64,000 bases of DNA from Sanyastnella coralliicola (GTDB taxonomy: Bacteria > Bacteroidota > Bacteroidia > Flavobacteriales_D > Sanyastnellaceae), in NCBI RefSeq assembly GCF_030845195.1, contig NZ_CP132543.1, forward strand, positions 699,501-763,500, written 5' to 3'. This document shows, in pieces, positions 9,660 to 27,715 of this stretch. How positions within the stretch are numbered: the first letter of the stretch is position 1; each line of letters begins with the position of its first letter. The position numbers and the translations under genes are program-made. The notes beneath the pieces were generated by a model. The model was not told the DNA's origin. It saw only the letters and a list, made by a program, of their open reading frames with translations, and ran no database searches.

Positions 9660-10214
9660 TTGAGCACAAGAAGAGACATACACGCTAGCATTATTGAACG
9701 ATGTCGTCAAGGAGAACGTTCGGCTCAACGAGAGCTGTATGAACTCTATGCGCCGGCTATGTTCAACGCTTCATTGCGCATCCTTCAAAGCAGGGAAGAG
9801 GCAGAAGATGTGCTGCAAGAATGTTTCGTCAAGATGTTCAAGAACCTACAGAACTTCCGAGGAGACGCCAGTTTTGGAAGTTGGTTCAAACGCATTGTCG
9901 TCAATGCCTCAATCAATCGCTTGAAAAAGCGCAAACTGATGACCACTGAATTAGATGAGGTCACAGAATGGGTAGATGATGAAGACGAACCAGTGAAAGA
10001 ACCAGAATACACGATAGCGGATGTTCAGAATGCGGTAGGTGCCCTTTCTGACGGATACCGCGCGGTATTCACTATGTATATGTTTGAAGACTACAGCCAT
10101 AAAGAAATCGCCGATGAGCTTGGTGTCAGTGAGTCGACTTCAAAGTCGCAGCTGAATAGAGCTCGAAAGCGAGTGAAAGAATGGTTGATCAATAATGGAA
10201 GAAATGGAATCTGA
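9660..10214 (+). CDS. ECF-type RNA polymerase sigma factor
   Basis: 184 residues with sigma region 2 (RELYELYAPAMFNASLRILQSREEAEDVLQECFVKMFKNLQNFRG, about 20-70) and region 4 (ALSDGYRAVFTMYMFEDYSHKEIADELGVSESTSKSQLNRARKRVKEWL, about 130-178), joined by an acidic linker. The start is TTG; no in-frame ATG precedes region 2. It overlaps the next gene, which encodes a single-helix protein likely to be its membrane-bound regulator. It should direct polymerase to GAAAC / CGTA-like promoters; one candidate is noted at 26773. Confidence 0.9.
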   Translation: MSTRRDIHASIIERCRQGERSAQRELYELYAPAMFNASLRILQSREEAEDVLQECFVKMFKNLQNFRGDASFGSWFKRIVVNASINRLKKRKLMTTELDEVTEWVDDEDEPVKEPEYTIADVQNAVGALSDGYRAVFTMYMFEDYSHKEIADELGVSESTSKSQLNRARKRVKEWLINNGRNGI

Positions 10215-11920: not shown

Positions 11921-12230
11921 CATTTCTAACCACGGGTCAAATCAAGAAATTTTCCTTTTTCGGGAAGAATTCCATCTGTAGTTCACTTGAAAAATGTGCT
12001 CATTCTGGCCCTTTGTAGGAACAATATGGTTTAAGTGTCCTACAAGTAGGGGTTCACATTATCAATGAGTTAGCCTTTGGTTTTCCCATTTTGAACCGCC
12101 CGGTCCTACATTCTCACAGCCGAATACGGCAGCCTGTCAGGGCAAGTCCTACATCGCCAATAAGGAAGCAACTGACAAACGTTCCTACAAGGCCGTCGTT
12201 CATTTGTACTGACTAATTCAGATAACTCAG
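11921..12230. promoter_or_regulatory. Gene-free region with four spaced TCCTACA motifs
   Basis: 310 bases with no credible ORF upstream of the Cys-rich secreted protein. TCCTACA occurs at 12038, 12104, 12147 and 12183, and its complement TGTAGGA at 12014. Spacings are about 66, 43 and 36 bases. Possibly operator sites for an unknown regulator; no known consensus fits. Confidence 0.35.
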
Positions 12231-13922
12231 ATGAGAGAGATGGGTTTCAATGTACCTCGAACAGTCATGTTACTGTTGGTGGTACTGCAGGGACTGAACC
12301 TCACGGCGCAATGCCCTGCATCCATTTTCTCTATCACCGAGTCCTGTGAAGAACAGGAACCGGGAATTTTTAACACCGCAGTTGATATCGTAGCCGATCT
12401 CGACGAAGGTTGCACTTTGAACGAAGTGTGCTATTCCCGACAGGGTGATGGAGAACAATTATGTATCGATGTATCCGGACTCAACATTGGGTCAGGTGAT
12501 ATCTACCATTTAGAACTTCCAGGTGGAGGCGCTTACCTCTTTTGGGTAAGCACAAGCACTCAATCTAGTGAGCTTGTGGAGCAATGGGTCAACTGTTATG
12601 ATGACACATTCTCTTGCCAAAATCCGTTTGCGGTAAACTACAATCTGTCATTAGCGGCAGAAAATGAGTTGGCTTGTATTTACGACACCTACGTCTGTGA
12701 CTGTTCAGGGAACAGCCATTCTCAAGGAGTGATGATCTACTTGGGAGACGGTGAATACGAGAATCCGGGAGTAGGAAAAGAATGGAACGGCGTGCCGGTT
12801 GACTTCACTTGTAATGTGTGGGGCTTCGACTGTGGTGATGGAAACATCAACTTCGACCCGTATGGAGTTTGTGACGGAAACTTGCCGCCCAATAACGGAT
12901 GTAGTTCTCCTGGCTGTACTCCATTGACATTGGCTATTCAACAGAACCCATGTGAAGCAACGCCAACAGGTTTGGCTACCAGCCTCCTGTTAGAATTTGG
13001 AATTTCTTCGGGATGTGAAGCAGACTTGCTGTGTTATGCCATCAACGGGGGAGAGGAGATGTGTATTTCTGTCCCGAACCTAGGGAATCAACAAAGTTTC
13101 CTCCTTCCTCTTGAAGAATTTGGAAACTATCAATTCCACTTCGAAACAACGGCTGGAGCGGTTTCACCATTCTTCTACTACACCGCAGAAGACCTGTGTG
13201 CCGCAGAAGAAACCATTTGTGACTGTGCTGGACAAGTATGGCCTGCTTCATTCACGAGCTACATCGGAGATGGGACCTTCAATGATGGAACACCAACCCT
13301 CGAAGGTTACCAGCTTGATTTCAACTGTATTGAATGGGGCTTTGATTGTAGCGATGGAGGTGGAGGCTCAGATCCATTTGGGGTTTGTAGCGGAAACTTG
13401 CCACCAGAAAATGGTTGTGGAGACGCACCAATTATTCCAGGTTGTATGGATGCAGGTGCATGTAACTATGTGCCACAAGCCGTGATAGATAACGGTTCTT
13501 GTACCTACGACTGTTTTGGTTGTATTGACCCACTCGCATGTAATTACGATTTGCAGGCCTTGATCGCTATCGATGAATGCACTTATCCAGACCCAGGATA
13601 TGATTGTTTAGGCAATTGTGTCAACGATGTAGATGGTGACGGAATTTGTGATGAATTCGAAGTGCAAGGCTGTACTTACAGTTTCGCCTGTAATTATAAT
13701 CCGGCCGCTACCGAGGAAGATGGGTCTTGTGAACGATCGTCATGCACTGGATGCACCAATTTCGCTGCGGCGAATTACGATCCAACAGCCACGGAAGATG
13801 ATGGGACATGCTTCTTTGATTTCTCTGAAACTTGTCCTGCCGACCTAGACAACAATAATGTCGTAGCCATTTCTGACCTGCTCATTTTGATTGGGTTCAT
13901 TGGCACCACGTGCGACGAATAG
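12231..13922 (+). CDS. Secreted Cys-rich protein with GC-ACNY repeats and dockerin-like tail
   Basis: 563 residues with a signal peptide (cleavage near NLTAQ). Two homologous halves each carry a beta domain ending in CDCxG ... YLGDG/YIGDG ... CNVWGFDC/CIEWGFDC ... DPFGVC. They are followed by four short modules of the type GCMDAGACNYVPQAVIDNGSC (about residues 405-530), which are common in secreted marine Bacteroidota proteins. The last 30 residues (CPADLDNNNVVAISDLLILIGFIG) form an EF-hand/dockerin-like segment that also closes the protein at 61650-63698. No T9SS type A domain is visible. ATGs at 12231 or 12240 could start it. Confidence 0.75.
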   Translation: MREMGFNVPRTVMLLLVVLQGLNLTAQCPASIFSITESCEEQEPGIFNTAVDIVADLDEGCTLNEVCYSRQGDGEQLCIDVSGLNIGSGDIYHLELPGGGAYLFWVSTSTQSSELVEQWVNCYDDTFSCQNPFAVNYNLSLAAENELACIYDTYVCDCSGNSHSQGVMIYLGDGEYENPGVGKEWNGVPVDFTCNVWGFDCGDGNINFDPYGVCDGNLPPNNGCSSPGCTPLTLAIQQNPCEATPTGLATSLLLEFGISSGCEADLLCYAINGGEEMCISVPNLGNQQSFLLPLEEFGNYQFHFETTAGAVSPFFYYTAEDLCAAEETICDCAGQVWPASFTSYIGDGTFNDGTPTLEGYQLDFNCIEWGFDCSDGGGGSDPFGVCSGNLPPENGCGDAPIIPGCMDAGACNYVPQAVIDNGSCTYDCFGCIDPLACNYDLQALIAIDECTYPDPGYDCLGNCVNDVDGDGICDEFEVQGCTYSFACNYNPAATEEDGSCERSSCTGCTNFAAANYDPTATEDDGTCFFDFSETCPADLDNNNVVAISDLLILIGFIGTTCDE

Positions 13923-26772: not shown

Positions 26773-26800
26773 GAAACCTTCCGAAACTACCCCCGTAATA
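26773..26800 (+). promoter_or_regulatory. ECF-sigma-like promoter
   Basis: GAAAC at 26773-26777 and CGTAATA at 26794-26800, spaced 16 bases, matches the general -35 GAAAC / -10 CGT arrangement of ECF promoters. No annotated gene follows on this strand before the terminator at 26865. Confidence 0.35.
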
Positions 26801-26804
26801 GATA

Positions 26805-26888
26805 CTGTAAGATGTTTCATGGTAAAAACACTCTTGCAATCAGTTAAGCAAGCAAAAGAAATTCAAGGTCCCGACGGGGACCTTTTTT
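26805..26888 (+). ncRNA. Candidate short transcript or small RNA
   Basis: Between an ECF-like promoter and a strong terminator lies about 80 bases with no room for an ordinary gene. An 11-codon ORF (ATG 26811) and a 35-codon ORF (26819-26926, MVKTLLQSVKQAKEIQGPDG...) exist, the second reading through the terminator stem. Its nature, leader peptide or RNA, is open. Confidence 0.3.
26865..26888 (+). terminator. Strong hairpin terminator
   Basis: AAGGTCCC-GACG-GGGACCTT followed by T-run; eight-bp perfect stem. Confidence 0.9.
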
Positions 26889-26953: not shown

Positions 26954-27715
26954 TTACTTGCTGATAATCAGCTGCTCAGTAAATACAGTGTTGTTTCCTT
27001 TTGTGACAGATACGATGTAGGTGCCGTTTGATAGGTTCGCTGTGTCGAACTGTACGCGTGTTGATGTCACGTTGCGTTCTGTGATTAGCGTTCCGTTCAT
27101 GTTGTGAACACGTACGATCGCTCCTTCAAGGTCTTGTGGAAGATCAACGCTTACCTGTCCGCCTGGGGCAGGGTTAGGGAACATTGAGACGTCACGTCCT
27201 GCTGTTGCCGCTTTTGCGTCGTAGTTCTCCATCATGCTTACTTGGAACTCGCGTGTTAGTTCTGCCAAAGTGTTGAGGTCAATTTCTCCCCAGATTCCAA
27301 CTACGGCAAATCCTTCCTCGCCACCTGCGATCACCAATACTTCAGTAACCACTCCATTTTGTTCCTTGATCAAGACTTCAGCGTTTCCGTCTTTGTCATT
27401 GATTGTTACCAAGCTTTCGAACTCTTTTCCTGGACGCTTACGAGCTTCCGTGTAGTTCGCACGAGAACTTCCTTTGTCTTCAGAAGCCACCACTGCAACT
27501 CCTTCGATCATTCGGAACGCTTCCAATAGCTCTTCTTCCTCTTCATTTGTTGCTTCGATATGGTTCGCCATTTCGAACATCTTTCCCGAGAAAGTAATCT
27601 GCGTGAATTCTTCGTTAGAAGAGAAGTCGCTGAAGTAAGTTTCTATCGGGTTTTGTTGAGCGCTCATTGCGAAGCTTCCTGCCACCGCTACAAGCATTAA
27701 TAGGTATTTTTTCAT
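26954..27715 (-). CDS. DUF4252-like domain fused to a T9SS sorting domain
   Basis: 253 residues: signal peptide (FAMSAQ), a DUF4252-like region (IETYFSDFSSNEEFTQITFSGKMFEMANHI ... VTINDKDGNAEVLIKEQNGVVTEVLVIAGGEEGFAVVGIWGEID), then a type A T9SS domain from MFPNPAPGGQVSVDL to EQLIISK. DUF4252 proteins are usually small exported proteins linked to ECF sigma operons; coupling to a T9SS tail suggests surface export. The family call for the first domain is from remembered pattern and is moderately sure. Confidence 0.75.
   Translation of the reverse strand: MKKYLLMLVAVAGSFAMSAQQNPIETYFSDFSSNEEFTQITFSGKMFEMANHIEATNEEEEELLEAFRMIEGVAVVASEDKGSSRANYTEARKRPGKEFESLVTINDKDGNAEVLIKEQNGVVTEVLVIAGGEEGFAVVGIWGEIDLNTLAELTREFQVSMMENYDAKAATAGRDVSMFPNPAPGGQVSVDLPQDLEGAIVRVHNMNGTLITERNVTSTRVQFDTANLSNGTYIVSVTKGNNTVFTEQLIISK

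Follow-up and report, generated by a model that had tools for sequence, protein, structure and literature searches.

The segment at 26773-26888 of the window (the whole stretch of DNA analysed, 64,000 nucleotides) very likely encodes an ECF-sigma-controlled, trans-acting antisense small RNA (sRNA), which probably blocks translation of a giant T9SS-secreted protein encoded far away on the same contig. The computed support consists of the conservation of the segment, its complementarity to the start of the target mRNA, and covariation between sRNA and target across related genomes.

A promoter-terminator cassette with the layout of a small RNA

The preliminary description of this DNA had reported a promoter-like pair and a perfect hairpin terminator with no normal gene between them, and all of this was recovered. 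GAAAC (26773-26777) is separated by a 16-base spacer from CGTAATA (26794-26800), the hairpin AAGGTCCC-GACG-GGGACCTT (26865-26884) is followed by a T tract, and no ORF of 60 or more amino acids lies between promoter and terminator (Table 1). The stretch 26804-26888 folds with -24.0 kcal/mol (z = -3.2), and its predicted layout is a 5' hairpin with the loop CAUGGUAA, a 26-nt open linker and the terminator. No Rfam family matched locus L001 up to E 1, the whole window yielded only three tRNAs at gathering score, and membership of the sRNA in an Rfam family was rejected because no match reached that score.

Table 1. Features of the sRNA cassette and its convergent neighbour (window positions)
Feature	Position	Strand	Remarks
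ECF-sigma-type promoter TGAAACCT...CGTAATA	26773..26800	+	-35 GAAAC, 16 bases, -10 CGTAATA
Predicted small RNA, ~85 nt	26804..26888	+	5' end from promoter spacing (+/- 3), 3' end from terminator
5' hairpin, 12 pairs and one unpaired base	26806..26838	+	from the fold
8-nt loop CAUGGUAA, complement of UUACCAUG	26818-26825	+	from the fold
Pairing segment I, ATGTTTCATGGTAAAAAC	26812..26829	+	18 unbroken pairs across the target start codon
Pairing segment II, CAATCAGTT...AAGCAAA	26837..26856	+	complementary to target 5' UTR, gapped
Unpaired linker	26839..26864	+	from the fold
Intrinsic terminator, 8-bp stem and T tract	26865..26888	+	compensatory C-G to T-A change in G001
DUF4252 protein gene with T9SS sorting tail	26954..27715	-	conserved convergent neighbour, not target

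Complementarity to the start of a giant secreted-protein gene

Besides itself, the best match to the segment in its own genome (G000; E 0.018) is antisense to the start codon at G000:C1:2046125. The sRNA at 726 kb and this gene at 2046 kb lie on one contig, making the sRNA trans-encoded. The product of the gene, 2867 aa long, contains nine HYR_4C stretches along with a T9SS sorting tail (PF18962, E 3.9e-11; TIGR04183, E 7.7e-12), and by eye it appears to have a signal peptide. Complementarity extends from -44 to +17 of the target mRNA: 18 unbroken pairs cover GUUUUUACCAUGAAACAU and span the start codon, with further pairing out to -44, and the duplex reaches -63 kcal/mol. The local-alignment score was 57, compared with maxima of 42, 42, 42 and 44 in four random 8.2-Mb sequences (each as long as the two strands of such a genome together), and the next-best score among the other own-genome loci compared was 38. 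With a 64-nt sRNA body, the target gave -51.0 kcal/mol versus -31.7 kcal/mol for the most favourable of 60 window start regions. In seven of seven target leaders a TAnnTTTG promoter element begins 115 to 128 bases before the ATG, so that the pairing region lies within the expected mRNA; TAnnTTTG is the -7 consensus given for F. psychrophilum in the available part of PMC9723704.

When the giant gene was compared between G000 and its congener G001 (L085, L177), leader and start were found to be kept (97% identical DNA) and the sequence after the signal peptide to be quite different, as if a passenger had been swapped behind a fixed regulated start.

Further targets are possible; the start regions scored were the 60 in the window. 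A different reading, which we judge unlikely, makes the sRNA a general regulator of the seed type with numerous targets, the giant gene among them, and a member of a sibling family carrying a GGUUAAGG element. Siblings with the same promoter type and a GGTTAAGG linker do occur, both in the same genome (781 kb) and in others. The window sRNA, however, lacks GGTTAAGG; besides its own locus, it has only two matches in its genome at E <= 1, one to the giant gene and one to the promoter of the 781-kb sibling; and none of the 60 window start regions comes near the pairing energy of the target.

The siblings were characterized as cassettes with the same promoter type, a 5' hairpin and a terminator, found at 781 kb in this genome and in other genera. 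A covariance model of ten related cassettes (R1) found matches at E <= 0.01 in 158 of the 399 genomes searched from the order, many of them only over the 3' GGTTAAGG-terminator part, and the latter were not counted as orthologues. Full-length R1 matches with the promoter motif, assigned by eye, include members outside the family (L161, L224, L225). Separate hits in g20 genomes (L075, L076) are ordinary gene starts and were set aside. Promoter and layout are common to the siblings and the window sRNA, but the TTTTGGTTAAGG element that precedes the terminator in the sibling family is absent from the window sRNA (26839-26864). As a general target site, CCTTAACCAAAA gave 33 matches with one mismatch versus 41 in the control. 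Its nine exact matches comprise three complements of sibling sRNAs, three complements of pre-terminator elements, one site at a start codon and two in or beside coding ends; given these counts and mixed places, a general target role of CCTTAACCAAAA is unproven.

Recurrence of target leader and sRNA

A 155-base leader query, searched in 114 genomes of the family at E <= 0.01, gave 10 matches in eight genomes. Seven are gene starts of the MKHST-/MTHFT-type (G000, G001, G002, G003, G007, G058 and G069); the other three are the G001 sRNA and two unrelated places (G051:C80 and G058:C177). The G001 target gene encodes at least 1775 aa, and the genes of this type outside G000 and G001 stay open through the whole stretch examined, at least 504 codons in each case.

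We then used a sequence-only model of the seven target leaders (R3), which contains neither the sRNA nor its promoter. At E <= 0.0035 in the 114 genomes it returned 26 matches: the seven leaders, ten sRNA loci on the opposite strand, five more large-gene starts (G051, G008, G017, G066 and G067) and four others (G119 twice, G018 and G117). The sRNA loci were found at G057:C308 (3.2e-8), G001:C33 (9.4e-8), G003:C20 (2.7e-7), G057:C201 (3.9e-7), G000:726 kb (1.1e-6), G007:C60 (1.4e-6), G009:C142 (2.6e-5), G009:C30 (0.0030, cut by a contig end), G010:C93 (0.0034) and G002:2301 kb (0.0034), and all ten are preceded by TG(A/T)AAC...CGT. This motif is kept in all 11 tabulated sRNA copies, five of which had served to build an sRNA model (R2), R3 itself being promoter-free. 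Weaker R3 matches to target-type starts occurred in G060 (0.004), G057:C165 (0.011) and G016 (0.013); the start in G057:C165 runs into the contig end after 77 codons and resembles the G007 protein. Among 20 places checked on R3 matches, target-type starts were found at L286, L292-L294, L296, L297 and L301, L287 is an sRNA cut by a contig end, and L302 (G016) is a possible further target; L285, L288-L291, L298-L300, L303 and L304 are other genes or unclear, and L295 is unclear.

The model R2, built from five sequences, was likewise searched in the 114 genomes and at E <= 1e-12 matched seven (G000, G001, G003, G007, G009, G010 and G057), of which G007 and G009 were not among the building sequences. 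The G002 sRNA is weak by R2 (E 0.106), yet directly adjoins the DUF4252 gene. Orthologous sRNAs thus number eight genomes in five genera (g1, g2, g6, g8 and g9); 20 further genomes with R2 matches from 4.5e-6 to 0.48, partly sibling sRNAs, were not counted as orthologues. These E-values are rough because the R2 consensus contains an implausible helix between promoter and RNA. For the targets in G058, G051, G008 and G016 no sRNA was present among the R2 matches, and for the sRNAs in G009 and G010 no target was found by the R3 and leader searches.

Covariation between sRNA and target

For six pairs hand-picked from a table of 11 sRNAs by 14 targets (G000, G002, G003, G007, G057 and G066), the true pairing ranked first among 720 permutations, whether judged by duplex energy or by alignment score. 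A ten-pair test took each genome's best R2 match and removed row and column means; only 4 (energy) and 2 (score) of 200,000 permutations equalled or bettered the true arrangement, and with G069 omitted 2 (energy) and 0 (score) of 100,000 did so. This test left out G001, which nearly duplicates G000; the second sRNA copy in G057; G009 and G010 (no target found); and G058, G051, G008 and G016 (no sRNA found). The true target ranked first in the row of its sRNA in four of ten cases, G007 being tied with the target of its sister G069, and the true sRNA ranked first in the column of its target in seven of ten. No cognate preference was seen for G017 and G069 (5th in row, 9th in column); the R2 match of G069 is a sibling sRNA, and its assembly is 85% complete. 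The sRNAs of G057, G066, G067 and G060 paired more favourably with another genome's target than with their own, by 1.2 to 7.1 kcal/mol. At the level of single bases, the four positions before the start codon read UACC in G000, UCAA in G007 and ACCA in G002, and each is mirrored in the cognate sRNA. The complementarity is therefore conserved and covarying, with the exceptions found among the ten pairs, and on these alignments sRNA and target seem to have changed together in related bacteria.

The same data bear on the idea that the complementarity is a relic, the sRNA having arisen from an inverted copy of the target leader without regulating the target. The pairing is long and in two parts, as expected of a copied stretch. 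We nevertheless consider a relic improbable, since its halves would drift apart, and lineage-specific changes at the two unlinked loci match in G000, G002, G003 and G007.

Conservation of the cassette

Motif counts alone say little about the cassette. With up to two mismatches the promoter consensus occurs 21 times in the window (18.8 +/- 4.2 expected), and genome-wide, with up to one mismatch, 17 times versus 11 for a reversed-pattern control, three of the 17 being exact; with counts so near chance, the promoter motif by itself is weak evidence. A terminator scan of the window gave 10 sites versus 6.3 +/- 2.4 in shuffled sequence, and the hairpin at 26865-26884 has the longest stem among them (8 pairs).

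Comparison of the segment across relatives, which the preliminary description had proposed as a check, showed it to be conserved, with 97% identity over 117 bases in the congener G001 and cassettes in further genera. On the sequences compared, it is this conservation, rather than the motif counts, that lifts the cassette above chance. G000 and G001 differ at three of the 117 positions (26831 C/T, 26870 C/T and 26879 G/A). The first falls on an unpaired position in the hairpin; the other two form a compensatory change from C-G to T-A in the terminator stem between these congeners. The other congener, G002, has only a diverged copy of the segment.

The preliminary description had left open a small regulatory RNA or a leader peptide; the former is supported, and the latter fails on an ORF that is not conserved. 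A coding role of the segment, as leader peptide or small protein (MVKTLLQSVKQAKEIQ...), is very improbable, even though an ATG 15 bases past the presumed transcription start opens 35 codons. All three differences between G000 and G001 change an amino acid in this frame, two of them being the compensatory pair of the terminator RNA; the C-terminal parts of the ORF differ between the two genomes; the ATG is missing in the G003 orthologue (CTTGG); and the frame reads through the terminator. We rejected the leader peptide on this lack of a conserved ORF. A chance pairing of promoter and terminator motifs would agree with motif counts that are near chance by themselves, but is hardly credible when promoter, RNA and terminator are kept together across genera.

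Genomic neighbourhood

The next gene had been described as of a DUF4252 type often linked with ECF sigma operons. Its type was confirmed (PF14060, E 2.9e-21), but here the gene stands outside any ECF operon. In four genomes the sRNA and this gene are neighbours, convergent in G000, G001 and G003 and with the sRNA in tandem after the gene in G002. In G007 the sRNA is located between relatives of other window neighbours, and in G057, G009 and G010, which have two sRNA copies each, none of four tested window neighbours was near it. The DUF4252 gene was also considered as an sRNA target and rejected (-19.9 kcal/mol, score 21).

Candidate sigma factors

The promoter directly upstream of the sRNA, GAAAC-N16-CGTAATA, is of the ECF type, and this type points to control by an ECF sigma factor. 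The earlier proposal that this is the factor encoded at 9660 was not borne out: ahead of the 9660 operon a relaxed form of the promoter pattern occurs once, inside coding sequence. Sigma70_r2 was matched by 26 genes of this genome, some of which are not ECF, and among them the ECF gene at 9660 is one candidate with no special claim. To look for autoregulation, all 26 genes were scanned with the strict pattern to a distance of 1.5 kb, and 25 of them with the relaxed pattern immediately upstream. The matches were scattered, and ahead of the 26th (L109) the relaxed pattern did not occur. Among these 26 genes, no ECF gene with the same promoter as the sRNA was established. The nearest form is GAAACCAGTGATATCTTGAGCGTT (GAAACC...CGTT), with a spacer of 15 rather than 16, ahead of the ECF-type sigma gene L102 (G000:C1, about 3127.7 kb), a site that may offer a weak lead to the sigma factor of the sRNA. 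Genome-wide, GWAACCT-N13-15-CGTA gave 20 matches versus 19 in the control, so no regulon can be drawn from it.

Similar promoters were noted elsewhere in this genome. At L024 (G000:C1:3914527, - strand) an orphan ECF-type promoter, GAAAC-16-CGTAATC, is followed by a structured segment of ~130 nt and a strong terminator, and GAAAC...CGTATTA lies ahead of two small, similar-looking lipoprotein-type genes (L017 and L019; G000:C1 1790984 and 2728592, - strand).

Proposed circuit and known systems

We propose that an ECF sigma factor would transcribe the sRNA from GAAAC-N16-CGTAATA to the terminator at 26865-26888, and that the hairpin loop and linker would then pair with the giant mRNA from -44 to +17. 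Because the pairing covers the start codon, ribosome entry is probably blocked, and the position of the pairing suggests a block of initiation. Pairing over a start codon usually means repression, and a block of initiation is the classical mode of repressing sRNAs; the target may instead be activated. An envelope or secretion signal would in this way reduce the burden of a very large T9SS cargo. What we infer here is transcription, dependence on a sigma factor, the sign of the regulation and the signal.

A wider picture, to which we give equal weight for and against, has the T9SS served by its own equivalent of the sigmaE-sRNA circuit: an ECF sigma factor reporting secretion or envelope trouble would fire a dedicated, co-evolving sRNA against the start of a giant cargo, as one branch of a Flavobacteriales network of GGUUAAGG siblings under ECF, sigma54 and housekeeping promoters. 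Because the prediction names both partners down to the individual bases, and compensatory changes have arisen naturally across genera, the circuit is directly testable. If true, it would reveal how bacteria with a T9SS hold back synthesis of proteins approaching 3000 residues under strain on the envelope or secretion route.

RybB, MicA and MicL of enterobacteria are sigmaE-dependent, terminator-ended sRNAs that pair near the starts of surface-protein mRNAs. The window sRNA resembles them in its presumed control by an alternative, envelope-stress type of sigma factor, its short terminator-ended form and its predicted pairing near the mRNA start of a surface protein, but belongs to another phylum, and its pairing is long and apparently aimed at one giant T9SS cargo gene. 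We know of no sequence relation between it and these RNAs.

Other parallels are drawn from the available parts of the reports cited. In F. psychrophilum, SM6 promoters, which have a CGT box and are ascribed to an ECF sigma factor, drive T9SS genes and the sRNA Rfp11, and the sRNA Rfp36 lies downstream of a sigma54 promoter (PMC9723704). By its description Rfp11 is like the window sRNA in lying downstream of a CGT-box ECF-type promoter within a regulon with T9SS genes; the available part of that report gives no target for it, whereas here a target is predicted. By analogy this favours a connection in this phylum between T9SS status, ECF sigma factors and sRNAs, though it singles out no sigma factor for the window sRNA. 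Rfp18 is likewise a Bacteroidota sRNA acting on secreted proteins, with a putative secreted adhesin among its predicted targets, but no ECF promoter is described for it in that part of the report, and its deletion lowers the mRNA of two metalloproteases (PMC9723704). In Listeria, LhrC is an envelope-stress-induced multicopy sRNA that regulates the surface adhesin LapB, comparable with the multiple copies in G057, G009 and G010; unlike here, the host is Gram-positive and the system named for LhrC is the two-component system LisRK, not an ECF sigma factor (PMC4132741). FoxJ of Fusobacterium nucleatum is a SigmaE-dependent sRNA outside Proteobacteria, but in another phylum, and mRNA activation is stressed for it (PMC11005410). 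In titles and abstract openings among the literature matches listed, no ECF-controlled sRNA with a target was found in Bacteroidota; Rfp11 is described behind an ECF-type promoter and, in the available text, without a target (PMC9723704).

Further observations on sibling RNAs

Words like CCTTAACCAAAA, complementary to the GGUUAAGG element, were seen just before the start codons of three secreted- or lipoprotein-looking genes (L121, L126 and L140), in counts not above control. Tandem arrays of three or four short terminator-ended RNAs with a TTTGGTTAAG-like element are located at G000:C1:781262-782077 (L060) and at L026, L063, L062 and L061. In these arrays the first RNA has an ECF-type promoter and the later ones have TTCCTAC boxes and TAnnTTTG-like promoters; beside the G000 array lies a gene that we take to be BatE-like. 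Another sibling RNA with a GGTTAAGG end (L073, G000:C1 about 2059.5 kb; L068, L078) lies behind a sigma54-like promoter, TTGGCACGGCACTTGCA in L073, and recurs in other genomes. The element TTTTGGTTAAGG (in L130, TTTGGTTAAGG) also precedes terminator-like hairpins after seemingly ordinary genes (L117, L118, L122 and L130), as if RNAs derived from 3' UTRs carried the same element. Finally, at 12010-12200 of the window, GTCCTACA/TTCCTACA words are repeated upstream of the gene at 12231, as they are before class B sibling RNAs.
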